From Ricordea florida (taxonomy: Eukaryota; Cnidaria; Anthozoa; Corallimorpharia; Ricordeidae), in the NCBI GenBank assembly GCA_949710005.1, contig OX453276.1, forward strand, positions 5,809,877-5,873,876: a DNA stretch of 64,000 bases, read 5' to 3'. The position numbers and the translations under genes are program-made. Positions within the stretch are counted from its first letter, which is position 1. The number at the start of each line of letters is the position of its first letter. This document shows, piece after piece, positions 5,306 through 28,006 of this stretch. The notes below the pieces were generated by a model. That model made no database searches and was not told where the DNA came from. It was given only the letters and a program-made list of their open reading frames with translations.

Positions 5306-5310
5306 GCTTC
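5306..5310. repeat. Left target-site duplication of the Polinton
   Basis: GCTTC precedes the left terminus and the same five bases follow the right terminus at 19678-19682. Retroviral-type integrases make 4-6 bp duplications. Polintons usually give 6 bp, but a sixth matching base is not present. Confidence 0.7.
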
Positions 5311-5552
5311 AGAGAATATATATTCCCCAGTCCGAGCACAAAATCCCACATACAAAATCCTAAAATCCCCACACGCAAAATCCGCAAATCCACATGCACA
5401 AAATCTGCAAGAACAAATCCCAAAACACAAATTTTCATTTAAGATTTATCAGAGATTTTTTTCAAAGATTTTATCAAGCATTATCAAAATAAAAAAATTG
5501 ATTTTTTTAAAAACTATTTAAAGGTAAAATGTAGAGTAACAAAAATATGGAG
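5311..5552. repeat. Left terminal inverted repeat of the Polinton
   Basis: About 240 bp match the complement of 19436-19677 with only single-base indels (for example CCC versus CCCC near 5347, and five versus six A before the ATG). The outer part holds about seven short tandem-like CAAAATCC units. The inner part carries a TTTAAAGGTA box and the start codon of the first gene. Confidence 0.92.
5517..5526 (+). promoter_or_regulatory. Promoter-like box TTTAAAGGTA in left TIR
   Basis: It lies 30 nt before the ATG of the first gene and is a variant of the TTTAAAGATT box found before the other genes. Because it lies in the inverted repeat, the same box also serves the right-end gene. Confidence 0.5.
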
Positions 5553-7332
5553 TATTTACAAAGACTAAGAGTTAGACCAGAATTGCGCAGATTTGCTAGT
5601 CGATATAGGGTTAGAAGATATGGCTTAATGCGAAAAGCTCAACTTATTGAAGAATTGATTAATATTCCAGAATTTATGGAAGAGTTGCACAATATTCTTC
5701 AAAACCAACCTAATCCTGAACCTGAAATTAATCTTCCTCAAAACCAACCTAATCCTGAACCTGAAATTAATCTTCCTCAAACACCACCTACTCCTGAACC
5801 TGAAATTAATCTTCCTCAAACCCCACCAGACACACCTACACCCCCTTCAACTTCAATTCAACGTACTAAACTTCCCAAACCACCACGCCCTCCACCCCCT
5901 TCAACTTCAATTCAACATACTAAACTTCCCAAACCACCACGCCCTCCACCCCCTTCAACTTCAATTCAACGTACTAAACTTCCCAAACCACCACGCCCTC
6001 CACCCCCTTCAACTTCAATTCAACGTACTAAACTTCCCAAACCACCACGCCCTCCACCCCCTTCAACTTCAATTCAACGTACTAAACTTCCCAAACCACC
6101 ACGCCCTCCACCTCCTAGAAAAAATATTATATCTAGTTTTGTTGATAGTGCTAAGAGTTTAGTGAAAAACATCACAAAAACAAAAACAAAGAACAAAACT
6201 TTTAATTGGATAAAGAATAAGACAGAGAAAGTGGTTGATCGAGTTAAGTCAGTTGGTGAATCGCTTACGAATCTCATGAATAAAAATACGTCTAAACAGT
6301 TACAAAGACCCACCTATAAACCTAGAAAAAATATATCAAATCAATCAAAACCTACACCTACTACAACACTTAGAAGAGAGGAAACTTCATTTGATGGAAG
6401 GGATTATGAGAAGGAGGGTGCTAGACCTAAATCAAAAAAAACATCTACGACAGAGGGTGTTAGAAATTATGAGAAGGAGGGTGCTAGACCTAAATCAAAA
6501 AAAAGTGAAAGTGTGAGAGATAAAGAAGAAGATTTCAATTTAAGAGAACATGAAACAGCGATGAATGGTTTTATGAAAACTTACAGGATGGATGGGCAGA
6601 AAGGATATGATCCAAAAACGTTTATTAATAAAATAAAACAGAAAGTTATAGATCTTATTATTAATCAGAAAAATAAACCAATAAAGGTGAGATTTATCTT
6701 AACATGTAAGTTTATTAAAAAGTCTCTACTTATGAACCGTATTTTTGAAGAAGAAAAATTCTTTCACTCAGAAACAGAAATAATTACTGAATCAGATGAT
6801 TTATCTAACTTATTCGATACTATGATAAATCACATACTCAAGGAGTTTGAACAATTTTTGGATAATAGTTATAAATTGGAATTCAACTATGTGAAATGCA
6901 TTGATATACACATTGACCCTTTTAATCCTCTTTCTGGATCTTCATATATTCCACTACCAGAAGAATTAGCAAATATGCAGGGAATTATTAACCCTAAGAA
7001 TGAAAATGATCATGAGTGTTTTAAGTATGCAGTAACTTTAGCTGTGTTTCAAAGGGAGAAAAACCCACAGAGAATAAATGAAGAAATGAGAGAGAACTCT
7101 AAGAAATTTAACTGGTCAGGAATAGAGTTTCCAGTTTCACTTAAACAGATTGATAAGTTTGAAAGTCAAAACAATTATGGAATTTATGTCTTTGGTTATA
7201 ATAAAGAAAAAGGGTTATATATAATTAGACGAAGTAAAAAGTTGGGGGTTGAAAAGATAAGACTACTCTTGATAACAAATGGTGAGACAAGTCACTACTG
7301 TTGGATTAACCCTTTCACTCCCAAGAGTGACT

Positions 7333-7377
<45 letters not shown>

Positions 7378-7446
7378 ATGGAGACCCCTTGGGAGTGAAA
7401 GGGTTAAAAACTATCTCCCTTAACCCTTTCACTCCCAAGAGTGACT

Positions 7447-7491
<45 letters not shown>

Positions 7492-7538
7492 ATGGAGACC
7501 CCTTGGGAGTGAAAGGGTTAAGAACATATCGAGGATAA
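5547..7538 (+). CDS. Upstream part of the polymerase gene: SAP-like head and proline-rich linker
   Basis: The open frame is 663 residues. Residues 1-50 form a SAP-like helix pair ending RKAQLIEELINIPEFMEEL, which is shared with the gene at the other end of the element. Residues about 53-90 hold three NQPNPEPEINLPQ repeats, and residues about 99-190 hold five 18-residue Pro-rich repeats (STSIQRTKLPKPPR core). Then come basic segments and a duplicated YEKEGARPKSKK. From about residue 330 a globular region follows, with a DHECFKYAV motif and a GIEFPV stretch, as found N-terminal to polymerase domains in related elements. The last roughly 77 residues are translated MITE sequence and are not native. 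The ATG was chosen for its 30-nt spacing from the TIR box. A SAP head suggests DNA binding, but this is inference. Confidence 0.75.
5703..5819 (+). repeat. 39-bp coding tandem repeat, three copies
   Basis: The unit encodes NQPNPEPEINLPQ; the third copy reads TPPTPEPEINLPQ. It lies in the linker of the polymerase gene. Confidence 0.85.
5841..6112 (+). repeat. 54-bp coding tandem repeat, five copies
   Basis: Each unit encodes 18 residues, PPPPSTSIQRTKLPKPPR, with one R/H change. The copies are almost identical at the DNA level, which suggests recent expansion. Confidence 0.88.
7306..7407. mobile_element. TTAA-flanked MITE, copy 1, inside polymerase gene
   Basis: This is a 102-bp unit including a TTAA at each end. 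Its terminal inverted repeats read CCCTTTCACTCCCAAG and CTTGGGAGTGAAAGGG (imperfect). TTAA target sites are the mark of piggyBac-type transposition. Confidence 0.88.
7420..7521. mobile_element. TTAA-flanked MITE, copy 2, tandem to copy 1
   Basis: This copy appears identical to 7306-7407 and is separated from it by 12 bp (aaactatctccc). The outer TTAA of each copy form the ends of the whole 212-bp insertion, so the pair probably moved as one unit. Confidence 0.88.
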
Positions 7539-7669
7539 ATAATAAAAATTATAACAAAGATGGTCATGCTCGTTTCTATTGTGATAATTGTCAACGCTCG
7601 TATTATTCAGAAGGGTCGTATAAAGAACATATAGAATATTGTGAAAATAATGAAGAAGTTAAGACTGTT

Positions 7670-10375
7670 ATGCCAAAATGTAAAGATGGAAGTCCTAAGT
7701 ATATTTGTTTTAATAATTTCAATAATAAAATACAAGTGCCATTTGTTGTATATGCAGACTTTGAGTGTTCTACATTGAAAATACATGGATGTTCTCCAGA
7801 TAAAAGTAAAAGCTTTACTAATAAATATCAACTGCATAAACCATCTGGATTCTGTTATTATATCAAGTGCTTTGATGAAAGCATATTACCATCTGATTTT
7901 GAAAAAATTAAACGATACACCGCAAAATCTCCAGATGAAGATGTGGCACAGATATTTGTAAATTATTTGGAGGAAGATGTTAGAAAAATTTATAATGAAA
8001 TAATAAAACCAAGAAATTATAAATTCTATTACTTTAATAAGAAGAATATGTCAGAAATGGATAAAAAAGATTATGAAAATGCTACACATTGTCACATATG
8101 TGATGGTGAATTAGGAGAATATAAGGTAATAGATCACTGTCATCTAACAGGAAAATATAGAGGTGCAGCTCATGATGAATGTAATTTAAAATATCAGATT
8201 CCAGATTTTATTCCAGTCAAAATTCACAATCTATCAGGATATGATTCTCATCTATTTATTAAGAATCTTGCTAAAACAGGAGATAAAATAAAAGATGAAC
8301 TAAGCTGTATACCTAATAATGAGGAAAAGTATATTTCTTTTACAAAAAAGATTGTAGTTGATGAGTTTATAAATAAAAAAGGTAAGTTGGTTAAAACGGA
8401 ACGATATATCAGATTTATAGATTCATTCAAATTTATGCCAGCCAGTCTTGATAGTTTAGTTGATAACCTTACAAAATGTGGAAAGTGCGATGCATGTAAG
8501 CCATTGGATTGTATAAAGAGATATATAAAAGATAAAAAGGTTATTCAGTATAAAGGTATTGGCAGATGTGAACAATGTAATAATTGCTTATTAGCAAAAA
8601 GTAAGTGTATTTCTCCAAAAGATGATAAACTAACTGAAACAAAAAAGGAATTTAGAGATAAAACTAATATGATTTTAAGAAAGGGCGTATTTCCTTATGA
8701 TTGGTTTGATAGCTTTGATAAACTTAATGAAACCCAACTTCCACCAAAGGAGGCATTTTACTCAAAACTTAACGGTAAAGATATTTCAGAAGATGATTAC
8801 AAGCATGCTAAAAAGGTATGGGAAACATTCAATATGAAAACAATGAGGGAGTATCATGATTTATATCTCATGTCGGATGTACTACTTTTAGCTGATGTAT
8901 TCGAGAACTTTAGAGATGTTTGTATTAAAAACTATGGATTAGACCCCGCTTGGTATTATACAGCACCTGGACTAGCTTGGGATGCTATGTTAAAGTTAAC
9001 TAAAGTGAATTTAGAGTTGTTAACTAACTACGATATGCTTCTTATGGTTGAGGGAGGTGTTCGAGGGGGTGTAGCTCAGATATCTAAAAAATATTCTAAA
9101 GCTAACAACCCATACATGAATGAATATGATCCTAACCAACGCATAATATATGATGAATATCTAGATGCAAACAATTTATATGGTGGAGGAATGAGTGAAC
9201 CACTGCCTACTCACGGTTTTAGATGTATGAAAGAAAAAGAGCTTGCAAACTGGAGAAATATGCCTTGCATATTAAGGGTTGATTTAGAATATCCTCACCA
9301 CCTTCATGATTTACATAATGATTATCCTCTAGCACCAGAGAGAATTAAGGTTAATGGGGTTGAGAAATTGATACCAAACCTAAACAATAAGGAAAAGTAT
9401 GTAGTTCATCATGAGACACTTAAAGTTTATGAAAGTCTTGGACTAAAAGTAACTAAGATTCATAATGGTATTACATTTGAAGAGTCAGCTTGGTTAAAAC
9501 CATACATTGATTTGAATACCAAACTAAGATCAAAAGCAAATAATGATTTTGAAAAAGATTTCTTCAAGTTAATGAATAACTCTGTATTTGGTAAAACCAT
9601 GGAAAATATTAGAAAAAGAGTAGATATACATTTGGTTACTAATGAAATAGAAGCTAAAAAATTAATATCAGAACCTAACTTTCAACATCGTACTATCTTT
9701 TGTGAAGATCTGGTTGCTATCCATATGAAGAAAACAGAGATATACTTCAATAAACCTGTTTACTTAGGTATGTCTATTTTAGATTTAAGTAGAACAATAA
9801 TGTATAAGTTTCACTATAATTATATCAAACATAAATATGGTGAAAAAGCTAAATTACTTATGACAGATACAGATAGTCTTTTATATGAGATTGAAACAGA
9901 TGATTTTTACAAAGATATCAGTCCAGATGTGAGAGAAATGTTTGATACTAGTAATTATCCTAAAGTTCATCCATCTGGTATTGAGACTGGCGTAAACAAA
10001 AAATTAATAGGTAAGTTCAAAGATGAAGTTGGTGGTAAGCAGATAAAAGAATTTGTTGGTCTAGGGGCCAAGCAATATGCAATAGGGATGGATGATGGTA
10101 AAGAAATAAAAAAGGACAAAGGGGTAAAGAAATCAGTCGTTGAGAAAACCATATCCCTCGATGAATATAAGAGATGTCTCTTCAAGGGTGAAAAACAATA
10201 CAGACAGATGAATGTAATAAGAAGTCATAAGCATGAGGTTTATACTGAAACTGTTAATAAAGTTGCACTATCTGCTGATGATGATAAGAGAATAATTTGT
10301 GAAGATGGTATACATACTTTAGCCATTGGACATTATCTTACCAAAACAGAATCAGGTGGGAGTTCAGTATCATAA
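7670..10375 (+). CDS. Polinton DNA polymerase B, exonuclease and polymerase domains
   Basis: The open frame is 901 residues and encodes a family B DNA polymerase of the protein-primed type, used to replicate the element. Exo I is YADFEC (D30, E32). A Cys/His insert with CHICDGELG and DHCHLTGKYRGAAH resembles an endonuclease VII-type zinc finger. Exo II is NLSGYDSH, and a Cys-rich cluster with CGKCDAC and CEQCNNC follows. Exo III is YLMSDVLLLAD. Polymerase motif A is DANNLYGGG (about 499), motif B is KLMNNSVFGK (about 634) and motif C is DTDS (733-736). All catalytic acids are present. The frame is open upstream of 7670 but lacks an ATG, because this is the 3' part of the gene broken by the MITE dimer. 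Its last 43 bp overlap the 3' end of the integrase gene on the opposite strand. Confidence 0.93.
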   Translation: MPKCKDGSPKYICFNNFNNKIQVPFVVYADFECSTLKIHGCSPDKSKSFTNKYQLHKPSGFCYYIKCFDESILPSDFEKIKRYTAKSPDEDVAQIFVNYLEEDVRKIYNEIIKPRNYKFYYFNKKNMSEMDKKDYENATHCHICDGELGEYKVIDHCHLTGKYRGAAHDECNLKYQIPDFIPVKIHNLSGYDSHLFIKNLAKTGDKIKDELSCIPNNEEKYISFTKKIVVDEFINKKGKLVKTERYIRFIDSFKFMPASLDSLVDNLTKCGKCDACKPLDCIKRYIKDKKVIQYKGIGRCEQCNNCLLAKSKCISPKDDKLTETKKEFRDKTNMILRKGVFPYDWFDSFDKLNETQLPPKEAFYSKLNGKDISEDDYKHAKKVWETFNMKTMREYHDLYLMSDVLLLADVFENFRDVCIKNYGLDPAWYYTAPGLAWDAMLKLTKVNLELLTNYDMLLMVEGGVRGGVAQISKKYSKANNPYMNEYDPNQRIIYDEYLDANNLYGGGMSEPLPTHGFRCMKEKELANWRNMPCILRVDLEYPHHLHDLHNDYPLAPERIKVNGVEKLIPNLNNKEKYVVHHETLKVYESLGLKVTKIHNGITFEESAWLKPYIDLNTKLRSKANNDFEKDFFKLMNNSVFGKTMENIRKRVDIHLVTNEIEAKKLISEPNFQHRTIFCEDLVAIHMKKTEIYFNKPVYLGMSILDLSRTIMYKFHYNYIKHKYGEKAKLLMTDTDSLLYEIETDDFYKDISPDVREMFDTSNYPKVHPSGIETGVNKKLIGKFKDEVGGKQIKEFVGLGAKQYAIGMDDGKEIKKDKGVKKSVVEKTISLDEYKRCLFKGEKQYRQMNVIRSHKHEVYTETVNKVALSADDDKRIICEDGIHTLAIGHYLTKTESGGSSVS

Positions 10376-11313
10376 GGTACAACCTGAAGTTCTTCCCTTA
10401 CAAAACCACGTCTTGGCCCATCTAATAAATAATACAAAACTGGTTGATTAGATGAAAACACACTCCTAGAAAGATAATAAATCTTAATACTCCAAATGGG
10501 ATCAGTAGCTCTTCTTCGCTCACCACCCTCAAGTTCACCGGGAAAGAGCAAGTATCTAACTTTAACACCAGGTGGTAGTCTAACCTCATCATATCCAACA
10601 ACTCGCTTATACTTTTTTGATTCGATATCAACCTCTTTCATTTTTATAGCTTTATCTGGCTCTTTACCAGTTATTCTCGTTGGTGTACTATTCAGAGTTT
10701 TTAAAATATCTGGTAATCGTTTCACCCATACTCTAGACCTTTCATCACTAATCATTTCTTGTGCATATTGATGGCTAAATAATCGTTCACTTAATGTTCT
10801 ATTTGCTCTTTCAACAAATGCTTGAGCTCTATGGTTTCCAGCTTCACTTCTCTGAATTTTTACATTATGTATATTCATAAGTTTTGTAACATCGCCCATA
10901 AATTCTCTTCCAGGATCAACAATTAATGTTTTAGGGTATTTTAACTTTCTGGAATATATTTTTTCAAAAGCTTTGGATATCTCATGAGTTTCTTTTGAGG
11001 TTAATGGTTCAGCATCTTTATATCTCGAGGCTACATCAATAACAACCAATGCATATCGATATGTTTTTCTTCCAACTCTATCATGTGGTAAAAATAATAA
11101 ATCTGCTTGGTGAATCTGATTCGGTTTATCCACAGTCCAGTGTGGTCTAGGAATATACTTTGGAGTTGGTAGATATATTTGCCATATCGCCTGTTTCTCA
11201 AGCCATTGTTTAGCCTCATCTTCACTAACTTTTGCTTTCTCAGCTAATTTAGGAATTGCAGAATATCCTTTCCAATATCCATCAGTTGAATAATATATTT
11301 TTGTATAACTCAT
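10333..11313 (-). CDS. Retroviral-type (RVE) integrase
   Basis: The product is 326 residues and should insert the element and create the short target duplication. An N-terminal helical segment (KLAEKAKVSEDEAKQWLEKQ) replaces the classical HHCC finger. The catalytic core has D71 (HQADLLFLP), D133 (IVDPGREF) and E168 (AQAFVERANRTL), spaced as in DDE integrases. The C-terminus (YYLLDGPRRGFVREELQVVP) resembles the SH3/chromo-like tail of Polinton integrases. It is convergent with the polymerase gene (43-bp overlap) and divergent from the capsid gene, whose ATG lies only 33 bp away. The frame is intact, so integrase function could persist in this copy. Confidence 0.93.
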   Translation of the reverse strand: MSYTKIYYSTDGYWKGYSAIPKLAEKAKVSEDEAKQWLEKQAIWQIYLPTPKYIPRPHWTVDKPNQIHQADLLFLPHDRVGRKTYRYALVVIDVASRYKDAEPLTSKETHEISKAFEKIYSRKLKYPKTLIVDPGREFMGDVTKLMNIHNVKIQRSEAGNHRAQAFVERANRTLSERLFSHQYAQEMISDERSRVWVKRLPDILKTLNSTPTRITGKEPDKAIKMKEVDIESKKYKRVVGYDEVRLPPGVKVRYLLFPGELEGGERRRATDPIWSIKIYYLSRSVFSSNQPVLYYLLDGPRRGFVREELQVVPYDTELPPDSVLVR

Positions 11314-11322
11314 TTAAAGATT
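11313..11322 (+). promoter_or_regulatory. Promoter-like box TTTAAAGATT before the capsid gene
   Basis: It lies 34 nt before the ATG at 11347 and overlaps the integrase start codon on the other strand. A TTTATAAG sequence about 28 nt upstream of the integrase ATG on the minus strand may serve that gene. Confidence 0.55.
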
Positions 11323-11346
11323 AATCCAAGTATCTTATAAATCAAT

Positions 11347-12573
11347 ATGACGTCTGAAAAAATTAATCCAAACAGAATTCCAAGAGAGCCATTTGGTTTG
11401 AAAGCAGAATCAACACTTAATCGAATTACTCTCAATCCATCTTCCGCTAATCCGAGAGAAACCTTATATATAAATATTCCAAAACTTTCTGAGAATTTAG
11501 TGATTGTACCCGGAAGTGTATCTCTACTATTTGACTTGGATGTTGATGGGCATGCTAATAACACACTCGTGAATAATGTGGGTAGTAATCTTGTATCTAG
11601 ACTTAGGGTTCTTTTTGGTGGTGAAACATTACAGGATACTCAAAGATACGATCTATTTCAAACCTATCATGATTTATTTTTACCAGAAGAAGATCGCGCG
11701 GATAGATTAAAACAAGGTATTTCTTCTGAAAACATGAGGAAGCTCAGGACAAATGCGGGTGATAAGAAAACACAAGATGTTAAGGAAGTGGCTCTTGCAT
11801 CAGTACATAACACCAAGTATCATATTCCACTAAACCATCCTATTCTAAACGATCACGGAGTTTTCTATCCAAGGGGGTTAGATCATCAACTAATCTTTGA
11901 GATTACACTGGCTCCAGTTAATGATATTGTTATTTATTCTGACACGACTAAGACTCCGACATATTCAATCAAAAACCTTGAGTTGGAATATTCTTGTATT
12001 TCAAGCGAATACTTGGCTCGTGAGGCTCAGGCGGCTTATCAGGTTGGTAAAGGATTCTTTTATGAAAATGTCACTCTACACAAAACTTTTACCATATCCT
12101 TGGGCGGTGATAGTGTTATAAATCAGCATATTAATCTACCTAGAAGATCAATGACGGGGATATTATGTTTGTTTACATTACCTATCGCTGCAGGAGCACG
12201 TAACTCTGAGAATTTTTACAATCCAGGTATCACCTCGATCAATATAGATGTTGATGGTGTACCAAATCGTTTATACTCTAAAGGAATGATACCATCAGAC
12301 TTCTGGGAGTCGGTAAAGAAACGTTTCGGAAGAGAGGGTGTAAAGGAAAAGGATTTTTATGCTGATAAGTTTGCTCTGTGGGTTGATATGAGAACTCACC
12401 CTGATAATGGTATTCATGGAGGGGGTCTGGCCTTAAATAATGCGCAAGATGGTGTAAAAATAGAAATTAAAAGAAAACAAAGTGGATCTGGTACTATAAC
12501 CTGTTATATGTTTGTTGTAGCTGATGCGATGATGGAGATTATGAATTCAAACTTACATTCGATAAAGTACTAG
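11347..12573 (+). CDS. Putative major capsid protein (double jelly roll)
   Basis: The product is 408 residues, soluble and strand-rich, with no membrane segment. Conserved-looking blocks are RLRVLFGGETLQDTQRYDLF, LFLPEEDRADRL and YHIPLNHPILNDHGVFYPRG. I recall such blocks from cnidarian element proteins, but no search was run. Size, position directly before the packaging ATPase, and absence of any other large structural candidate fit a double-jelly-roll capsid protein of the Polinton class. Assignment is by context and general similarity. A structure prediction showing two eight-stranded jelly rolls would settle it. Confidence 0.7.
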   Translation: MTSEKINPNRIPREPFGLKAESTLNRITLNPSSANPRETLYINIPKLSENLVIVPGSVSLLFDLDVDGHANNTLVNNVGSNLVSRLRVLFGGETLQDTQRYDLFQTYHDLFLPEEDRADRLKQGISSENMRKLRTNAGDKKTQDVKEVALASVHNTKYHIPLNHPILNDHGVFYPRGLDHQLIFEITLAPVNDIVIYSDTTKTPTYSIKNLELEYSCISSEYLAREAQAAYQVGKGFFYENVTLHKTFTISLGGDSVINQHINLPRRSMTGILCLFTLPIAAGARNSENFYNPGITSINIDVDGVPNRLYSKGMIPSDFWESVKKRFGREGVKEKDFYADKFALWVDMRTHPDNGIHGGGLALNNAQDGVKIEIKRKQSGSGTITCYMFVVADAMMEIMNSNLHSIKY

Positions 12574-12589
12574 TTTACATGAAATTTAA

Positions 12590-12599
12590 CTTAAAAAAC
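12590..12599 (+). promoter_or_regulatory. Weak promoter-like box CTTAAAAAAC
   Basis: This degenerate version of the TTTAAAGATT box lies 32 nt before the ATPase ATG. Confidence 0.35.
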
Positions 12600-12621
12600 G
12601 TAATGTTATAATACAAAAATT

Positions 12622-13248
12622 ATGGAAGAATTAAGAGATAAAGTTCCTTTTCATTGTATTATAACCGGTCCAACAAATTGCGGAAAGACAAAGTACCTCA
12701 TAGATCAGCTCCGAGGACCATTCCGGAAAGTTTTTGAATACATTGTTCTAATATGCCCAACTTTTTCTAAAAATAAAACCTATCATAATTTTGCTAATAA
12801 AGATAAACATTTATATGTATTATCACCCGATGCTAGTAACATTGATGAGATTAACGAGTTATTAACTGATTGTCAAACTTTGTTCTCCGGTACTAATACA
12901 CTAATAATTTTAGACGATTGTGCTGTTTCGAATGATCTAAAGAAACCTTCAAACAAGTTTATAGATCTAGCATTTTCTGGAAGACATCATGGTTTATCAG
13001 TTTGGGTTCTCACTCAGCAATTAACATCCATAGCAAAACCATTCCGTGAAAATGTAGCTTGTGTGGTCTCATTCCATAATCCATCACAGAAAGGTATGAA
13101 GATGCTTTTCGAAGATTATGGAGGTGATTTAGACTCTGAAACTAGTAAAAAGTTTGTACAACTCCTTAAAACTGAAAAATATTCTAGACTTTGTTTATGT
13201 TTACGTTATCCATTTCAATGTTATTTAGAGATTCCTGAAGTGATTTAA
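12622..13248 (+). CDS. DNA packaging ATPase (A32/FtsK-HerA-like)
   Basis: The product is 208 residues. Walker A is GPTNCGKT (16-23) and Walker B is TLIILDDCAV with D98-D99. A sensor-like WVLTQQLTSIAKPFREN follows, with the Gln expected after Walker B in FtsK-HerA ATPases. These enzymes pump DNA into preformed capsids in Polintons, virophages and large DNA viruses. The length and compact domain fit the family. It follows the capsid gene by 48 bp, a usual pairing in this group. Confidence 0.88.
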   Translation: MEELRDKVPFHCIITGPTNCGKTKYLIDQLRGPFRKVFEYIVLICPTFSKNKTYHNFANKDKHLYVLSPDASNIDEINELLTDCQTLFSGTNTLIILDDCAVSNDLKKPSNKFIDLAFSGRHHGLSVWVLTQQLTSIAKPFRENVACVVSFHNPSQKGMKMLFEDYGGDLDSETSKKFVQLLKTEKYSRLCLCLRYPFQCYLEIPEVI

Positions 13249-13253
13249 AAATA
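13244..13253 (+). promoter_or_regulatory. Promoter-like box TTTAAAAATA
   Basis: It lies 31 nt before the ATG at 13275 and overlaps the ATPase stop codon. Confidence 0.4.
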
Positions 13254-13274
13254 ATCCATCTATTATCACAAAAG

Positions 13275-13808
13275 ATGACAAGCGTTGAAGATTATATTGA
13301 AGAAGAAAAAACCGGAGGAAAGACTGAGGTAAAAGATGTGGTAAAATATAATGATGATATTGAAATAAAACAAGAATCACTAGCTATTCTTGCATCTCTT
13401 GAGACTACAAAGGAATATTTAGGTGTTGATATGAGTCTAGGTGATATTAAGAAACTCACAGAAAAAGACATTGAAAAATATTATAATAGATATCAGGCAG
13501 TATTAGGTAAGAAAATTAGTGGTGGATTAGTAGATTCATCTCTTCAATTAGTTTCTCATGTTATTTCTTACATGGTTCCTGTAGATGATATAGAAGCTCT
13601 TTGTAAAGACTTGAAGAATGATGAGTTGGTTAATCGTGAACTGACAAACTTTGTAGGTCTCTTAGCATTAAAGGGTGGAAGATTGGTAGCACTTGCCAGC
13701 GGACTATTCCAGGTTGCTAAACACATTAAAATCAACAAAATACAAGAAGTTTCAAACACAATTACAGATGATTCTAACAAAACTGAACATACTACTAAAC
13801 ACAACTGA
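13275..13808 (+). CDS. Polinton protein of unknown function, 177 residues
   Basis: I do not recognise this gene. The N-terminus is acidic (VEDYIEEEKTGG), the middle is helical with a conserved-looking MSLGDIKKLTEKDIEKYYNR, and hydrophobic helices follow (LVDSSLQLVSHVISYMVPVD, GLLALKGGRLVALASGLFQV). It lies in the virion gene block with its own promoter-like box. Its 3' end runs into a 22-bp tandem repeat, so the last few residues and the stop position are repeat-derived. Confidence 0.7.
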   Translation: MTSVEDYIEEEKTGGKTEVKDVVKYNDDIEIKQESLAILASLETTKEYLGVDMSLGDIKKLTEKDIEKYYNRYQAVLGKKISGGLVDSSLQLVSHVISYMVPVDDIEALCKDLKNDELVNRELTNFVGLLALKGGRLVALASGLFQVAKHIKINKIQEVSNTITDDSNKTEHTTKHN

Positions 13809-13862
13809 TCATACTACTAAACACAACTGAGCATACTACTGAGCATACTACTAAGCACAACT
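13786..13862 (+). repeat. 22-bp tandem repeat at a gene end
   Basis: About three and a half copies of catactactaaacacaactg overlap the stop codon at 13806-13808. Confidence 0.75.
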
Positions 13863-13864
13863 GA

Positions 13865-13874
13865 TTTAAAGATT
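13865..13874 (+). promoter_or_regulatory. Promoter-like box TTTAAAGATT
   Basis: It lies 34 nt before an in-frame ATA at 13899 but 64 nt before the first ATG (13929). In other genes the distance to ATG is 28-41 nt. Confidence 0.55.
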
Positions 13875-13928
13875 CTTTACTTTGGGAAATAAATAATAAT
13901 ATCTGAAGAAGTTGTTGAACAAATTACA

Positions 13929-14327
13929 ATGGATCCACCTACTACTAAAAATAAGAAAGCTGTTAAAGAGAAAGATCCTAAAAAGGTTGCAGCTGGTAAG
14001 GCAATGGCAGAAAAAAACAGATTAGCTAGAGAAGCGTTAGCCAGGGAAATGAAACGTGAAAAGGAACAAGCGGAGAGCAAAAATAAAGAAAATTCAAATG
14101 AAGAAGAAGAAAATACAAAAGCATGGATTCCAGAGCTATCTTTTACTACTGTATTATCAATAGTTGGAATAGGGTTCACTGCATTTGACATGTTTATGAG
14201 ATATTATAAAAACAGAATACCTGATTTATCACAAGTTCCAACTAATGTTTCACAAATGTCACAACCTACAAAGATTCCTGTACCACAACCACCACCCACA
14301 CAGATTCCAAAAATAGGAATGTTATAA
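13929..14327 (+). CDS. Small basic membrane protein; probable lost upstream start
   Basis: The product is 132 residues from the first ATG. The N-terminal half is a charged helix (KDPKKVAAGKAMAEKNRLAR, then ALAREMKREKEQ). One membrane segment (about 73-91, FTTVLSIVGIGFTAFDMFM) follows, then a Pro/Gln-rich tail. In-frame sequence upstream is open to an ATA at 13899-13901 at the expected distance from the promoter-like box, so the original start may have been there. I do not recognise a function. A virion membrane or DNA-binding protein is possible given the basic arm, but this is inference. Confidence 0.7.
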   Translation: MDPPTTKNKKAVKEKDPKKVAAGKAMAEKNRLAREALAREMKREKEQAESKNKENSNEEEENTKAWIPELSFTTVLSIVGIGFTAFDMFMRYYKNRIPDLSQVPTNVSQMSQPTKIPVPQPPPTQIPKIGML

Positions 14328-14336
14328 GGAAAGTAG

Positions 14337-14346
14337 TTTAAAGATT
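14337..14346 (+). promoter_or_regulatory. Promoter-like box TTTAAAGATT
   Basis: It lies 32 nt before the ATG at 14369. The leader continues tcttactg...agtaaaaaat, almost the same as the leader at 15020. Confidence 0.65.
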
Positions 14347-14368
14347 TCTTACTGTTTAGTAAAAAATT

Positions 14369-14587
14369 ATGTCAACTGAAAACAAACTTGTGAAAACTGT
14401 TACTGATTCAACCGTCATTATCGGATTAGCTGCTGGAGTTGGTTATGTAGCTAAAAAAGCTCTGAAAGAATCATTTATGAACGATCCATCCTCAAGTATT
14501 ACAAACTATGCTAAATGGGTAGCTGTATTGTCAGGTAGTATGTACCTAAAAACATATTTAGAGGATCAAAAGATTTTGCCAACTTAA
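14369..14587 (+). CDS. Small two-helix membrane protein, 72 residues
   Basis: It has two hydrophobic segments, TVIIGLAAGVGYVAKKAL (about 13-30) and YAKWVAVLSGSMYLKTYL (about 48-65). There is no recognised family. It has its own box and leader, and it probably belongs with the other small membrane proteins of the virion block. Confidence 0.65.
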   Translation: MSTENKLVKTVTDSTVIIGLAAGVGYVAKKALKESFMNDPSSSITNYAKWVAVLSGSMYLKTYLEDQKILPT

Positions 14588-14592
14588 AGATT
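14583..14592 (+). promoter_or_regulatory. Promoter-like box CTTAAAGATT
   Basis: It lies 28 nt before the ATG at 14611 and overlaps the previous stop codon. Confidence 0.55.
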
Positions 14593-14610
14593 TTACATAT
14601 TGACTAACAA

Positions 14611-15003
14611 ATGGCAACAATAGCAATGATGGTTGGTGGAGCTATTTTGAATGCGACTACATTCGTTGGCGGATCATATCTTGCAAAATATCTATCAGGT
14701 GATAAAACATACGATGAACGAATACGACACGATAAGGCAATAGAAAAATATCAAAAAGATTATGCTACATATCAGGAAAAAAGACAGAATCTCATTGATT
14801 GGCACTCTAAACAGAAGGATGAAAAATATCAAGCATCAAAAAATATTTCTAATACAGATGAAGCTTTGAAATTGTATAGTGAGGCATATGAACCAAAATT
14901 CTCTGATTATTATAGACCTAGTGACAATCAAAAGATGGGTGAAATGGCTTATGTAGGTGGTGGTATGTTGGCATTGGGTTATATGATTAGTAAATTCTTT
15001 TAG
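14611..15003 (+). CDS. Small membrane protein with charged middle, 130 residues
   Basis: It has an N-terminal hydrophobic segment (IAMMVGGAILNATTFVGGSY), a charged Tyr/Lys/Gln-rich middle (KYQKDYATYQEKRQ) and a C-terminal hydrophobic segment (AYVGGGMLALGYMISKFF). I do not recognise the family. The two membrane ends around a coiled middle suggest a structural role in the virion block. Confidence 0.65.
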   Translation: MATIAMMVGGAILNATTFVGGSYLAKYLSGDKTYDERIRHDKAIEKYQKDYATYQEKRQNLIDWHSKQKDEKYQASKNISNTDEALKLYSEAYEPKFSDYYRPSDNQKMGEMAYVGGGMLALGYMISKFF

Positions 15004-15019
15004 TCAATTGTGTGATCAG

Positions 15020-15029
15020 TTTAAAGATT
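15020..15029 (+). promoter_or_regulatory. Promoter-like box TTTAAAGATT
   Basis: It lies 32 nt before the ATG at 15052, with a leader nearly identical to the one at 14337. Confidence 0.65.
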
Positions 15030-15051
15030 TCTTACTGATGAGTAAAAAATC

Positions 15052-15996
15052 ATGGCAGAAGGAGGATATTTACCAGAAGATATTGATCCAACTAAACTAA
15101 ATGATCCCAATAATGTTGGTACTTATGAGGGTAATGAATCATTATCATTATATACAACTCCAAAGACATCCGTCACTCGTCCAACTTACCCCGATAATTA
15201 TAAACAAACAACTTCATTTGGTGGTAGTGAAAAACATCCTTTGTTAGATGAAGCGGAGCGCGATCAAGATTATGCTTGGGGTGAGGTTAAACGTAATTTC
15301 CCTAAAGTTAAAACTGATAAAGTAATAGCTGGACTGGATAAATTAAAACGAGTATTTGTAAAATTGAAAAGGGGAGGAGCTCACAAATATACTTTATTAT
15401 CCAATGGTGAATTCGAAGAAAAACCTCCCCCGACTTTAATAAATTATTTAGGTAAAAGAGCTGGAGAGGTTTTGAAAGATGTTGATAGTGAGAACGCTAA
15501 GGATGAAAAAGAGATCGCTGAAAAAGATAAAAAACTAAAATTCCTCAAGGAAAAACCGCTTAATACCCCAGAAGAACGCAGCCAAATAGATACTCTGCAG
15601 AGTGAAATTGGTGACCACAAACAAAATATAGCAAACAGGAACAGAGAGGCTGAATCAGTCTGGGAAAAAATGTCATTACGAAATAAGATAAAGTACATAT
15701 TCAAAAAGTATGGTTTTACAGTCTTTGGTGTTGTTAGTGCTGTAGGTGTGGTTATTGGTGTTATAGTTTCTAATCTTTCAAAAGGTCTAACTAAATTGGG
15801 TAAAGGTGTGGGAAATGGTTTGAAAACTATTGGTAAGAAACTCGGTGAAATATTGCCTGGAATGGTTGGAGCTATCGTGAGCTTTCTTTTCAAAACAGCA
15901 GGTGAGGTTATTGGGTTTTTAGGTAAGAACGCTTGGTTGTTGATAATGGCTGTGGTTCTATATTTTGTGGAACAGTTTAAAAAGAAGAGGGGGTAA
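15052..15996 (+). CDS. Membrane-associated virion-block protein with Gly-rich amphipathic region, 314 residues
   Basis: The N-terminal region is soluble (residues 1-110) and a charged coiled coil follows (about 140-205, KDEKEIAEKDKKLKFLKEK). Next are a hydrophobic segment (TVFGVVSAVGVVIGVIVSNL, about 223-242), a Gly/Lys amphipathic stretch (LTKLGKGVGNGLKTIGKKLG) and a second hydrophobic stretch ending AWLLIMAVVLYFVEQFKKKR. I recall similar C-termini in cnidarian element proteins but know no function. The amphipathic Gly/Lys stretch between membrane segments resembles membrane-active peptides, so membrane penetration during entry or assembly is a possible role; this is inference. Confidence 0.7.
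   Translation: MAEGGYLPEDIDPTKLNDPNNVGTYEGNESLSLYTTPKTSVTRPTYPDNYKQTTSFGGSEKHPLLDEAERDQDYAWGEVKRNFPKVKTDKVIAGLDKLKRVFVKLKRGGAHKYTLLSNGEFEEKPPPTLINYLGKRAGEVLKDVDSENAKDEKEIAEKDKKLKFLKEKPLNTPEERSQIDTLQSEIGDHKQNIANRNREAESVWEKMSLRNKIKYIFKKYGFTVFGVVSAVGVVIGVIVSNLSKGLTKLGKGVGNGLKTIGKKLGEILPGMVGAIVSFLFKTAGEVIGFLGKNAWLLIMAVVLYFVEQFKKKRG
15976..15985 (+). promoter_or_regulatory. Weak promoter-like box TTTAAAAAGA
   Basis: It lies 36 nt before the ATG at 16012, inside the end of the previous gene. It is a weak match. Confidence 0.3.
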
Positions 15997-16011
15997 GTTA
16001 AAAACAAAATA

Positions 16012-16395
16012 ATGAATGATACAACGTTTCTATCTATCACAATGTTAACCACTGAAACAAGAATATATTTAGATCCACCCTTGACCAACGTAAAAGAGAT
16101 ACAAATGATAGATAGTTCCATGACTAATGCAACGTCTGACAATCCTTTGTACTTAATGTGTGATCTTATAGAGCCAAAGTCTTCATATTACAATAGGATC
16201 CCACGTGGTGAAAATGTAGAACTTAACCCATCACAACTATTAGCTGTTGTTCCTTCCAAAAAGTATCCATGTTTAAGAATCCCAGAAACTAAAAACCCTT
16301 TGAACTACTTTACTTTATGGATTTTAGATAAAAACGGAACAAAATTAATCTCTAATACAGTGCGTATTCGTATCGATTTAAAGATTTCATGTTGA
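16012..16395 (+). CDS. Strand-rich small protein, possible minor capsid component, 127 residues
   Basis: There is no membrane segment. The sequence alternates hydrophobic and polar residues, as in a beta sandwich (FLSITMLTTETRIYL, VELNPSQLLAVVPS, YFTLWILDKNG). It sits in the virion gene block and its stop is 10 bp before the next ATG. A small jelly-roll minor capsid or spike protein is the best guess from context; a structure prediction would decide. No homolog is recognised by eye. Confidence 0.6.
   Translation: MNDTTFLSITMLTTETRIYLDPPLTNVKEIQMIDSSMTNATSDNPLYLMCDLIEPKSSYYNRIPRGENVELNPSQLLAVVPSKKYPCLRIPETKNPLNYFTLWILDKNGTKLISNTVRIRIDLKISC
16377..16386 (+). promoter_or_regulatory. Promoter-like box TTTAAAGATT
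   Basis: It lies 29 nt before the ATG at 16406, inside the previous gene. The leader continues to agtaaaaaatg, as before other genes. Confidence 0.6.
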
Positions 16396-16405
16396 GTAGT
16401 AAAAA

Positions 16406-17002
16406 ATGGATGAATACAATAGAATTTATCCGAATGTTCCTGTGAATGGAGACCCACTTAATTTCAGACTACAAAAGTCATGTGAAGTACTACAAAATCT
16501 TGAGAAGGAAATTAAACATTACGAGGATGTTAGGAAAAAATACAATAGAGCAAGGGGAATATTTACAAAAATCAGTGTTAGTAGTGGGGTGTTTTCAGTT
16601 ATCCTATCTGCAAGTGGACTTGGAACCTCTCTTACTGGTTTTGGTGCTGTTGTTGGTATCCCATTAGGCGTTGTCGGTGGTATTTGTGGGGGAATATCGG
16701 TTGGATTTGGTGCGGCTTCTAAAAGACTTTCACATAAAGTTAGTAAACATGAACAGACTGTTTCTCTAGCAAAAGCAAAAGTAAACACCATTAACAACTT
16801 GGTTTCAAAGGCGCTGAAAGATAATGTTATCTCCGAACAAGAATTTTCCATAATTTTAGCAGAGTTAGAAAAGTTTGAAAAACTAAAACTCGAAATCCGT
16901 CAAAAATTTAGGAGAGATACTGAAAAAAACTTAAATATGTCACAGATAAGGAGAGAGGTTCGTGCAGACATATTAAAGGAGCTAACCGCTCCCGCACATT
17001 AA
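16406..17002 (+). CDS. Gly-rich membrane protein flanked by coiled coils, 198 residues
   Basis: The N-terminal coiled coil (about 25-50) has EVLQNLEKEIKHYEDVRKK. A long Gly/Ser hydrophobic region follows (about 55-103, with GVFSVILSASGLGTSLTGFG and VVGIPLGVVGGICGGIS), then C-terminal coiled coils (about 112-195). The layout resembles hemolysin- or apolipoprotein-L-like helical membrane inserters in a general way, but no family is recognised. It is part of the virion block with its own box. Confidence 0.65.
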   Translation: MDEYNRIYPNVPVNGDPLNFRLQKSCEVLQNLEKEIKHYEDVRKKYNRARGIFTKISVSSGVFSVILSASGLGTSLTGFGAVVGIPLGVVGGICGGISVGFGAASKRLSHKVSKHEQTVSLAKAKVNTINNLVSKALKDNVISEQEFSIILAELEKFEKLKLEIRQKFRRDTEKNLNMSQIRREVRADILKELTAPAH

Positions 17003-17043
17003 AATTTTCATTTGAGGTTAATATTAGAAAAGAACGGTGTTGA

Positions 17044-17053
17044 TTTAAAAACA
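17044..17053 (+). promoter_or_regulatory. Promoter-like box TTTAAAAACA
   Basis: It lies 41 nt before the ATG at 17085 and is a weaker match than most. Confidence 0.35.
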
Positions 17054-17084
17054 TATTCATCTTATTCTAAACATAAAGAATAAA

Positions 17085-17903
17085 ATGGGATTACTAAATG
17101 ATTTCAGAAATAAATATCCAAATGCTGATACAGGTAAATTCATAGTTGTAGCTGATCCGTATGGTGGTTACATTAAGTGGAGATTCAATGGTATAACAAT
17201 CATGTCTTATGACGATCCCACCGGAAAAACATGGACTGAAGACCTATCACCCCGCTTGAAAAGACTTTTATGGAAAGATTTAGGCTTGGATGATGATGAA
17301 TTGAGTTCATTCCCAAAAAGTTTAAATATGACAAATCAAAGCTATCCTATACCAGCTATTAACTTTGATGACTTTACAAGCGACATAACAAAAATGCTAA
17401 CCTCGCTGGATACATATGTGTCAAATACTAAGAAATTCACAGCAAAGATGCGTGATGTTTTTACCAATCAAGTTGTTACTTTCAAGTTTGGTAAGCAAAG
17501 TAGAAAATGGTTGAACGGACCAGATATGAATTATTGGCCTCAGCAACTTAACTTTGCAGTATGGTGTGCGACATCTGGTTGTGGGATAAGTCCTTTTGAA
17601 AGTCTAAATTATCCTAAAGTAGTGAGTAGTTTCATTAAGTTTCATGTGTATTTCACAATAAGGCGGATATTATATGAATTAAGTCTTCCTTTACCTGATG
17701 AGCAACCTTTTGTAATAAATAATAATCCATATAATAAAGTTGCATATCAACGATTGTGTGCAGAATTTGGGGTTAGTAATAATTCTGATTTTAGATGGAA
17801 AGGTGGTAGAAACAGAGGATTGGGAGATATATTCCTTGATTATGGTTCTGGGTACAATGGAAGAGGTGGAGGAAATCAAAATGTACATATTGTAAGGAAT
17901 TAG
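17085..17903 (+). CDS. N-terminal part before the TAG, 272 residues
   Basis: It is open from ATG 17085 to TAG 17903. It is soluble, with no signal peptide and a Gly/Arg/Asn-rich end (GYNGRGGGNQNV) just before the stop. If the TAG is fixed, this is the only product likely to be made from the box at 17044. Confidence 0.65.
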   Translation: MGLLNDFRNKYPNADTGKFIVVADPYGGYIKWRFNGITIMSYDDPTGKTWTEDLSPRLKRLLWKDLGLDDDELSSFPKSLNMTNQSYPIPAINFDDFTSDITKMLTSLDTYVSNTKKFTAKMRDVFTNQVVTFKFGKQSRKWLNGPDMNYWPQQLNFAVWCATSGCGISPFESLNYPKVVSSFIKFHVYFTIRRILYELSLPLPDEQPFVINNNPYNKVAYQRLCAEFGVSNNSDFRWKGGRNRGLGDIFLDYGSGYNGRGGGNQNVHIVRN

Positions 17904-18077
17904 GATGATGAAGCAGATCAATGGCCTGGTGAAGGTGGTAAATTTGCTGATGAGGGTGGTAAGAAAGAAAAGGGTAATCTCATCTCATTTATCCGTAATG
18001 ATGACTTTGCTGATTTCAAATATTCTTGGTTTATCCCAACAAGTGGTCATGGGCTCACTAAAGCTGGACTTGGTAGA

Positions 18078-18638
18078 TTGAATCGATCCGCTGAAGCTTT
18101 TGTTTACTGTATATTGGGAGCGCAAGTCAACACTAGAAACTCGATTTACGGTAATGGTGGTGGAGCGATAGAGACGCAACAAGAATTTTTATCCCTATTT
18201 GAAAGTAGTGTGATCGAGAATGACATTTCTAGTTCCATCCAAAGATGTCAATTAGCTGTACAGGAAGCGAAATTACGGCTTGATTTAGCTATTGCTCCTG
18301 GTGTATGGTTAATGCCAAGTAATATGATAATCAACACTGAAAGCGTGACTGGTTTCAATAACAAACTTATGAAAGCGAGCAATGATATGAATTTTGGAGT
18401 GAATAATTCCCTAAACACTGAATCAAAACAGGTTGGAATAAGTCATAACATGGGATCTTCAAAGGTAAAGTTACCTCATATAGCTGAGATAAATTCAAAA
18501 CCTTTAAAAAATGAAACGAAACCAAAACCAAAACCCTCAACTCTGAATGAAAAGTCGGACGTGACCGCACAACATGAAACAAATATATTAACATTTATAA
18601 TTATCACTGGTGGATTAGCGTGGTATCTATTTCGATAG
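18078..18638 (+). CDS. C-terminal part after the TAG, 186 residues from first Met
   Basis: It is in the same frame as 17085-17903. There is no promoter-like box before its first Met, which argues that it is the tail of the same gene. It has a helical middle (RCQLAVQEAKLRLDLAI), a Lys/Pro stretch (KPKPKPS) and a terminal membrane helix. Confidence 0.6.
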   Translation: MNRSAEAFVYCILGAQVNTRNSIYGNGGGAIETQQEFLSLFESSVIENDISSSIQRCQLAVQEAKLRLDLAIAPGVWLMPSNMIINTESVTGFNNKLMKASNDMNFGVNNSLNTESKQVGISHNMGSSKVKLPHIAEINSKPLKNETKPKPKPSTLNEKSDVTAQHETNILTFIIITGGLAWYLFR

Positions 18639-18857
18639 TTCATGAGTATTTCACGTGATTATGATTGTTTGTAAATTAGTGTCCACGTGTAGAACAATAG
18701 ATAGCATACTTTTACGACATAGCAACAAGCAAGTTGAAAAGTGGTTTTGAAATTGAAAAGTAGATTTTATGTTTACTTTAAAAAGGCTGGTTTCTAACGT
18801 CGCTAAGGAATGTGATTACGTCAATGTAAATTTTTTGTTATGTAACACTGACTTGCG
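18639..18857. other. Short gap between convergent Polinton genes
   Basis: No gene is seen. The stretch is AT-rich and separates the convergent 3' ends of the virion block and the Cys/His-repeat gene. Confidence 0.5.
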
Positions 18858-19439
18858 TTATATAACTTTATGATTTTGTTGTGTATCTTGTGTTGTGCGA
18901 CATTCTTTACAACTCGCCTTCTGTTTATCGTGTTCACATATTTGAGACCCTCCACACTCTTTACAAAAACATTTTTGTTTTCCATGAATACATATTCCTT
19001 TCCCTCTACAGTCTTTACATTGATATTTTTTTCGATTATGAATACATATTTGCGATCCTCCACACCCTTTTTTACAATAAGACTTTATTCTTCCGTGAAT
19101 ACATATTTGCGTTCCCCCACACTCTTTACAGTAAGCCCTTATTCTTCCATGAATACATATTTGAGATCCTTCACACTCTTTACAATATGACTTATTTTTG
19201 TTGTGTTTGCATATTTGAGACCCTTCACACTCTTTACAAAACCATTTTTTTTTCCCATGAATACACTTATACTCATTATTTTTTGTCTCATCATCATCAA
19301 TAATATTATACAACTCTTCCATAAATTCAGGAATATTAACCAACTCTTCAATAAGCTGAGCTTTACGTTTTTCAGAATATCTTTTAACACCCAGCTCTTT
19401 AGCGATATCTTTCAATTTTTTCAATGTAAAACTTTCCAT
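18858..19439 (-). CDS. SAP-headed Cys/His-repeat protein at the right end of the Polinton
   Basis: The product is 193 residues. The first about 45 residues form a SAP-like module (LKDIAKELGVKRYSEKRKAQ, then LIEELVNIPEFMEEL) shared with the polymerase gene at the other end. The rest is about seven 18-residue units of pattern C-x2-C-x5-C-x-H (for example CKECGGSQICEHDKQKAS), likely a string of small zinc-binding knuckles. Similar CKECGG/ICxH repeats occur in giant-virus proteins as I know them. The ATG was chosen because it lies 31 nt from the TTTAAAGGTA box in the right TIR. Function is unknown; nucleic acid binding is a fair guess from the SAP head and zinc repeats. Confidence 0.82.
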   Translation of the reverse strand: MESFTLKKLKDIAKELGVKRYSEKRKAQLIEELVNIPEFMEELYNIIDDDETKNNEYKCIHGKKKWFCKECEGSQICKHNKNKSYCKECEGSQICIHGRIRAYCKECGGTQICIHGRIKSYCKKGCGGSQICIHNRKKYQCKDCRGKGICIHGKQKCFCKECGGSQICEHDKQKASCKECRTTQDTQQNHKVI

Positions 19440-19677
19440 ATTTTTTGTTACTCTACATTTTACCTTTAAATAGTTTTTAAAAAAATCAATTTTTTTATTT
19501 TGATAATGCTTGATAAAATCTTTGAAAAAAATCTCTGATAAATCTTAAATGAAAATTTGTGTTTTGGGATTTGTTCTTGCAGATTTTGTGCATGTGGATT
19601 TGCGGATTTTGCGTGTGGGGATTTTAGGATTTTGTATGTGGGGATTTTGTGCTCGGACTGGGGAATATATATTCTCT
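19436..19677. repeat. Right terminal inverted repeat of the Polinton
   Basis: It is the complement of 5311-5552 with single-base indels only. Weaker similarity continues inward through the SAP-coding DNA on both sides. Confidence 0.92.
19461..19470 (-). promoter_or_regulatory. Promoter-like box TTTAAAGGTA in right TIR
   Basis: It lies 31 nt before the ATG of the Cys/His-repeat gene and is the inverted-repeat partner of 5517-5526. Confidence 0.5.
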
Positions 19678-19682
19678 GCTTC
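19678..19682. repeat. Right target-site duplication (GCTTC)
   Basis: It is identical to 5306-5310. Confidence 0.7.
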
Positions 19683-26950: not shown

Positions 26951-28006
26951 TTACTTTTTAGAACCTTCTGGCGCTAACTCGTGACACTCTTGCCGAGACG
27001 AAATAGGGCCAACCTTAAACTGGCAGCCGTTATAACAAGTTAAGAGCCGGCGAAATTCTCCCTTGAAAGATCTGTTCATTCCGGCGTAGATAAATACATT
27101 GGTCGAGCTACTAAGAAACACCAAGCCAGTGTGGATGAGGTAAATCTCTCTCGGGAGGGATGGTATCAAACCAAAACGCATAACCACCGCTAAAATCCAT
27201 GCAGGGATCCAGCACATTCCAAATCCGAGCATGACGACAGAAAGAGACTTGGAAATTTTTATTTCCTGTTTGGTTATTCTCGCGGAATGTACACTCGACT
27301 GCAATGCCGGCACAACTTCGAGATTGTGTTGCTTGATGGATTTGAACACGTGGACGTAGCAGAAAAGCGCCACGCTAAATGGAAGCGTCAGAAAAAAGAA
27401 AATAACGATGCAGTAATGGACGATCATCCCAGCCTCGGTCAGGTGGATCACGTGACATCCAGCATACTCCGGCACAAAAGCAAATCTCTGAAGCTGCGCA
27501 AGGCGCGGTATGGCAATGTAGCAGGCAACAATGGCGCATAGATTCGCTAATATAATGCGAGACCTCTTGGGTGAGAAAACGCGGTTATAATGTTGCGTTT
27601 TGACTATCCGCACGTATCGGTTGAATGCCGTTAACCCCATTATGGATGTAGAAGCAAACAGTCCGAAGTTGGTGAAGAAAGCATGAATTTCGCAGTAAAA
27701 CGATCCATAAAGCCATCTGCGAGTCAGGAGAACTCCAGCCGTAAAAGGCATCACAAACGTTGCTGAAAGCAAATCGCTCGCCGCCAGCGCTATGATGTAC
27801 AAGTTAGTTGCAGTCCTCAAACGAGGGTTCTTATATACAGCTAAGCAAACCAGTAGATTGCCAGTCAAAGATACTGCGTTCATGAGTAGACAAGTGACTG
27901 TTTCTATCACTGTCACTGCTGTTCCATTGTCAGGCAGTTCGGTTGTTATCGTCGCATCCAAACATTGACCTCCGCAAGTATCTCCTCCTTCTAGAAAAAT
28001 TGTCAT
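26951..28006 (-). CDS. Class A GPCR, melatonin-receptor-like, intronless
   Basis: The product is 351 residues with seven membrane segments. TM1 carries SLTGNLLVCLAV (the GN pair) and TM2 LIIALAASDLLS-type LAASD. TM3 starts after the Cys of FYCEIHAFF and ends with NRY (AFNRYVRIVK) instead of DRY. TM6 has GMCWIPAWIL (CWxP) and TM7 STNVFIYAGM (NxxIY in place of NPxxY). A second Cys (YAGCHVIH) in loop 2 fits the usual disulfide. NRY and TM7 features recall melatonin and related orphan receptors, many of which are intronless in cnidarians. The ligand is unknown. The frame is intact. The gene lies between the two FN3-gene loci on the same strand, with repeats on both sides. Confidence 0.88.
   Translation of the reverse strand: MTIFLEGGDTCGGQCLDATITTELPDNGTAVTVIETVTCLLMNAVSLTGNLLVCLAVYKNPRLRTATNLYIIALAASDLLSATFVMPFTAGVLLTRRWLYGSFYCEIHAFFTNFGLFASTSIMGLTAFNRYVRIVKTQHYNRVFSPKRSRIILANLCAIVACYIAIPRLAQLQRFAFVPEYAGCHVIHLTEAGMIVHYCIVIFFFLTLPFSVALFCYVHVFKSIKQHNLEVVPALQSSVHSARITKQEIKISKSLSVVMLGFGMCWIPAWILAVVMRFGLIPSLPREIYLIHTGLVFLSSSTNVFIYAGMNRSFKGEFRRLLTCYNGCQFKVGPISSRQECHELAPEGSKK

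Follow-up and report, generated by a model that had tools for sequence, protein, structure and literature searches.

The stretch of DNA analysed here, called the window, comprises 64,000 nucleotides of the corallimorpharian Ricordea florida (GenBank assembly GCA_949710005.1, contig OX453276.1, positions 5,809,877 to 5,873,876, forward strand). Its positions 5311 to 19677 are occupied by a 14,367-bp element. It is genuine and of recent insertion, belongs to a multicopy family of the Polinton type, and is now disabled. Very probably it is an endogenous virus of the Polinton/Maverick type that was inserted recently by its own rve integrase, was subsequently disabled, and belongs to a family whose members exchange the block of genes around PolB. 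The terminal inverted repeats (TIRs) start with AGAGAATA on the left and finish with TATTCTCT on the right (AG...CT type). An alignment over approximately 240 bp shows no substitution between them, the only differences being two one-base indels. The sequence GCTTC abuts both ends directly and is not extendable to 6 bp at this site. These results bear out a preliminary description, read by eye, of a recently inserted Polinton-type element with near-identical repeats of about 240 bp, AG...CT ends and a 5-bp GCTTC duplication. The PolB, integrase, capsid and ATPase genes named there are all present, as judged by PolB motifs, an rve integrase, a capsid protein and an A32-type ATPase. Three genes by which Polintons/Mavericks are recognised (rve integrase, double-jelly-roll capsid protein, packaging ATPase) and the long TIRs with AG- or AGT-type ends were found; the usual 6-bp duplication was not, as 5 bp are duplicated at 11 of 13 sites.

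Core genes

Over 771 aa, the C-terminal part of the window PolB shares 61% identity with another PolB of this genome, one positive for PF03175; the window frame itself has no match to PF03175 at E 1 in Pfam. At its N-terminus Rho_N was matched with E 0.0017, below the cut-off, and the proline-rich stretch consists of 54-nt and 39-nt tandem units. The cysteine and histidine of the putative vOTU-like domain are present in the window and kept in all eight siblings examined; by analogy with a published case (PMC11071308; papers are cited here by PMC number from excerpts) this region may be an OTU-like domain. Four further PolB genes lie within about 30 kb of each other elsewhere in the genome (C8:21.37-21.40 Mb) and share about 26% identity with the window PolB over 78 aa. 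The integrase shows the catalytic pattern D-D-35-E. All 11 siblings compared retain this triad, and the frame of one sibling contains a stop; a C-terminal chromodomain, a feature of adintoviruses, gave no Pfam match at E 1. The capsid protein is compact (408 aa). Its nearest folds among the PDB matches listed are capsid proteins of giant viruses, and an Adintovirus-labelled protein is among its fold matches in BFVD.

Copy number and selective constraint

The host genome (537.8 Mb in 48 contigs) contains at least 102 capsid genes, that of the window included, which are 93-100% identical to the window's over nearly the whole protein; eight have an internal stop, and the count is a lower bound, 102 of 6189 candidates having been scored. 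Public databases hold 549 capsid homologues. The ratio of nonsynonymous to synonymous substitution rates (dN/dS) was taken between the window copy and 6 to 19 sibling loci per gene. Median values were 0.05 for the ATPase, 0.09 for the capsid protein, 0.15 for the integrase and 0.36 for the PolB part compared, and 0.13 and 0.19 for the first and second parts of the 518-codon gene. The 127-aa protein gave 0.25, the Cys-rich protein 0.38 and the 314-aa protein 0.56, the highest; the remaining values are given in Table 1. Judged by these values, the unnamed genes, whether for small membrane proteins or for the 518-codon protein, are probably real and were functional while the family spread.

It is improbable, though worth weighing, that the family is a passive one, amplified from a few master copies with the capsid and membrane genes merely hitch-hiking. 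A single genome with 102 or more capsid genes would fit such a family, as would a sibling pair on contig C6 with common flanks, which indicates that segmental duplication adds copies. However, most differences between copies of the capsid, ATPase and small genes are synonymous (median dN/dS 0.05-0.56), which is unlike hitch-hikers, and the same argument from constraint was made for vertebrate Mavericks (PMC8097293).

Broken genes

The element had been described as complete, which was not borne out. PolB is split into two frames (5547-7538 and 7670-10375), with a stop shortly past two tandem nested elements of 102 bp that are near-identical to each other. The 518-codon frame is interrupted by TAG at 17901-17903, where all eight siblings examined have a sense codon. 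The 102-bp insert was found in none of 20 sibling pieces, and the eight pieces that span its site all have an open PolB frame. Judged from these sequences, both breaks look private to the window copy, and they are taken as recent since the TIRs are unmutated. Most likely the copy lost its function once it had been inserted, through the transposons nested in PolB and the nonsense codon; the less likely alternative is a defective genome mobilised in trans, with breaks older than the insertion. The case is a warning that elements judged complete by eye may hold broken genes. A stretch related to the 102-bp element also occurs at locus L063, which lies close to where another copy ends.

Target-site duplications

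End pairs were examined for 21 copies (the window, ten located by TIR and ten by capsid gene), and 14 were resolved, at 13 independent sites. An exact 5-bp duplication is present at 11 of these (the window and ten others) and none at two; a 6-bp duplication with symmetric ends occurs at none of the 13. Five bp are duplicated both at sites with AGAG ends and at sites with AGT/ACT-repeat ends, which read AGTAGT...ACTACT in one copy and ACTACT...AGTAGT in two others. The 5-bp duplication, noted earlier for this element as a departure from the usual 6 bp, is thus real and family-wide. One of the two sites without a target duplication is represented by two sibling insertions with identical flanks (L031-L034, C6:28.42 and 28.53 Mb), which are probably one insertion that was later duplicated. 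The first Maverick paper is said to have given 5-6 bp. It is very unlikely that the element is an ordinary Polinton whose 6-bp duplication was obscured here by a mutated base or a misread end. In favour, 6 bp is the length stated for Polintons and vertebrate Mavericks (PMC10045372, PMC8097293), and four of the 11 sites permit it when the right end is shortened by one base; against it, the 11 exact 5-bp matches have symmetric ends, and at seven of them 6 bp cannot be read even with ends shifted by one base. For Polinton-like viruses the published length is 5-6 bp (PMC12220804), so the element is classed by its genes, as a Polinton variant.

Probable exchange of the PolB block

Eleven sibling loci were compared, chosen as the best capsid matches (97.5-98.3% identity, a level due in part to selection). 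The integrase is 90-94% identical to that of the window in all 11. Their PolB falls into two classes, with a C-terminus 78-85% identical to the window in four loci (class 1) and 25-29% in seven (class 2). DNA similarity runs on through the PolB part compared in the class-1 loci; in the class-2 loci, which lie on five contigs, it starts at 10278-10342, the junction at which the convergent PolB and integrase genes meet with their 3' ends. Among the copies for which ends as well as PolB were examined, class-1 PolB is accompanied by AGAG ends in the window and eight copies, two of them duplicates, and class-2 PolB by AGT/ACT-repeat ends in three (L012, L016, L019); two resolved copies (C10:9115556 and C7:28952778) were examined for ends only. 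The copy C13:4311532 has a class-1 PolB together with a left-end Rho_N/SAP segment (43%) and a Cys-rich gene (50%) like those of the other class, which makes the link between PolB class and ends an imperfect one. We infer from these alignments that the PolB block has been exchanged by recombination around a nearly constant integrase-capsid block. The constant 5-bp duplication with both classes of ends suggests that the integrase rather than the ends sets its length.

Assembly can mis-join high-copy repeats, and copies with a near-identical capsid gene and a very different PolB could be such joins. This is hardly credible here, since the changeover falls at nearly the same point in seven copies on five contigs, PolB pieces taken from five copies, at least four of which belong to the seven, have open frames, and three of the seven mixed copies have matching TIR pairs with 5-bp duplications. 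The resemblance of these PolB pieces to the window PolB is limited to 28-35% over 80-85 residues.

Hypervariable membrane protein

The 314-aa protein was compared in 13 copies in which its frame is full-length. One is the window; the others come from 20 right-block loci, of which 12 were used and eight left out. Its N-terminal half has a mean pairwise identity of 41% (25-80) and its C-terminal membrane half one of 72%. Mean identities of its neighbours are 96% for the 72-aa protein (13 copies), 88% for the 130-aa (12), 93% for the 198-aa (12) and 78% for the 127-aa protein (10). The natural reading is that the head would be an exposed, membrane-anchored surface under diversification. In vertebrate Mavericks the gene pw was tentatively tied to host switching (PMC8097293). 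We lean somewhat towards a joint reading in which the family behaves as a population of modular viruses: TIR, PolB and end genes would form a replication block that is swapped at the PolB/integrase junction around a constant integrase-capsid-membrane block, duplication length would follow the integrase and not the ends, and the hypervariable head would face the host or rival elements.

Proposed life cycle

The rve integrase would cut the two target strands 5 bp apart and insert the element. The N-terminal part of PolB, released by the putative vOTU-like domain, may prime PolB, which would replicate the linear genome from its inverted repeats. Building and filling of particles would fall to the capsid protein and the A32-type ATPase, the 518-codon protein and the small membrane proteins may serve the particle or its entry, and the integrase would insert daughter genomes. 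Nested transposons and the nonsense codon would then have disabled the present copy, and family members would swap the PolB block at the junction described above.

Several points weigh against this account of an endogenous virus. Pfam recognised no Ulp1/adenain-type (adenovirus-like cysteine) protease at E 1 in the 16 open reading frames scanned, a set that excludes the 72-aa frame, and a divergent one may be present. No clear single-jelly-roll penton was found; the sole candidate named is the 127-aa protein, which is possibly strand-rich by eye and may be a small capsid or vertex protein, and for which a PDB profile search gave no match. Every dN/dS comparison is pairwise with a single copy, not all loci can count as independent, and there are stops in some of the frames. 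To these are added the four sites that permit 6 bp, the share of selection in the capsid identity of the siblings, and the mixed copy C13:4311532.

Comparison with known systems

Polintoviruses of stony corals have reportedly been described (Stephens 2024). The element resembles Polintons/Mavericks, especially cnidarian ones, in its PolB with a putative vOTU-like domain, rve integrase, double-jelly-roll capsid protein, A32-type ATPase and AG-/AGT-type TIR ends; Polintons with these genes occur in Hydra and Nematostella, and the capsid protein PY of a Hydra Polinton likewise matches PBCV-1 VP54 (PMC4028283). It differs from Polintons in the 5-bp, not 6-bp, duplications of its family. A protease, identifiable in 74% of Polintons (PMC4028283), was not found among the 16 frames scanned. 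Its gene order is unlike that described for vertebrate Mavericks (PMC8097293). With adintoviruses it shares an rve integrase and a PolB whose N-terminus may hold an OTU-like domain, and mixed pairings of capsid and PolB are on record for them (PMC11071296); the compact capsid protein, nearest to those of giant viruses among the PDB matches listed, is listed as a difference. Mavirus-type endogenous virophages (EMALEs), too, have hypervariable regions and replication-gene versions that change along with the TIR (PMC10945749). A literature search, in which papers were represented by excerpts, found no report of systematic 5-bp duplications or of a hypervariable membrane protein in animal Polintons, which is not proof of absence. 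The Polinton kind itself is already known; new here are the family-wide 5-bp duplications, the probable exchange of the PolB block and the hypervariable membrane protein. The suggestion of a distinct cnidarian lineage of virus-like elements is plausible. With at least 102 close capsid genes joined to at least two PolB classes, questions about Polintons become testable without a virion, such as whether integrase or terminus sets duplication length, whether PolB is specific to its own TIR and which genes are required for spread. The hypervariable membrane protein hints at where the elements may meet host or rival.

Right-hand genes and neighbouring features

The coordinates of the features are collected in Table 1. 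At least four small membrane proteins had been claimed, and those of 132, 130, 314 and 198 aa each contain a hydrophobic 19-mer scoring at least 1.6. The 518-codon anchored protein of the preliminary description is probably a real gene under constraint; its frame is broken, and towards the C-terminus it has no more than a weak hydrophobic stretch (best 19-mer 1.30). The pieces scanned matched no Pfam family and its family profile no PDB sequence; the first piece has 240 homologues in public data, including Oculina patagonica and Actinia tenebrosa, which, together with the single-exon receptor gene described below, agrees with a cnidarian host but is no proof of one. The gene set had been called non-standard, which holds in so far as a protease was not found by Pfam in the 16 frames scanned and the 518-codon protein is unplaced, and fails in so far as the capsid protein and the first 518-codon piece have the many public homologues given above. 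The start of the 193-aa gene mirrors that of the left-end gene (inverted repeat I2). Tandem repeats of 54 nt occur in both end genes, at 5835-6116 (Pro-rich, PolB N-terminus) and at 18936-19265 (Cys-rich, right-end gene).

Table 1. Features of the Polinton-type element in the R. florida window
Feature	Position	Strand	Remarks	Median dN/dS (loci)
Left target-site duplication	5306..5310		GCTTC	
Left TIR	5311..5553	+	AGAGAATA end; inner limit approximate; aligned to right copy	
PolB, N-terminal part	5547..7538	+	Rho_N/SAP-like start, Pro-rich stretch, putative vOTU-like domain (Cys491, His583); ends at stop	
Two tandem 102-bp TTAA-flanked inverted-repeat elements	7306..7521		Interrupt PolB; piggyBac-type miniature inverted-repeat transposable element by edges	
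PolB, C-terminal part	7670..10375	+	Exonuclease and polymerase motifs, endonuclease-VII-like insert	
Integrase, rve core	10333..11313	-	D71-D133-E168; PF00665 E 6e-9, above cut-off	
Major capsid protein	11347..12573	+	Double jelly roll	
A32-type packaging ATPase	12622..13248	+	PF04665 E 3.2e-11	
177-aa protein	13275..13808	+	Conserved	0.24 (8)
132-aa membrane protein	13929..14327	+	Hydrophobic segment	0.34 (19)
72-aa protein	14369..14587	+		0.11 (19)
130-aa membrane protein	14611..15003	+	Hydrophobic segment	0.20 (18)
314-aa membrane protein	15052..15996	+	Hypervariable N-terminal half, better-kept C-terminal membrane half	
127-aa protein	16012..16395	+	21 homologues	
198-aa membrane protein	16406..17002	+	Hydrophobic segment	0.16 (16)
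518-codon gene	17085..18638	+	Interrupted by in-frame TAG at 17901-17903	
193-aa protein	18858..19439	-	Rho_N/SAP-like with Cys-rich repeat; PF07498 E 1e-8, above cut-off; reads inward	
Right TIR	19435..19677	-	Inner limit approximate	
Right target-site duplication	19678..19682		GCTTC	

Outside the element, the window contains on the minus strand a single-exon rhodopsin-type G-protein-coupled receptor of 351 aa (26951-28006), apparently a host gene, and a GIY-YIG endonuclease-like frame (31906-32415). Adjacent DUF3504/phage-integrase-like and QRICH1 frames lie at 38129-39400, also on the minus strand, a pairing that is presumably that of Crypton-derived genes.

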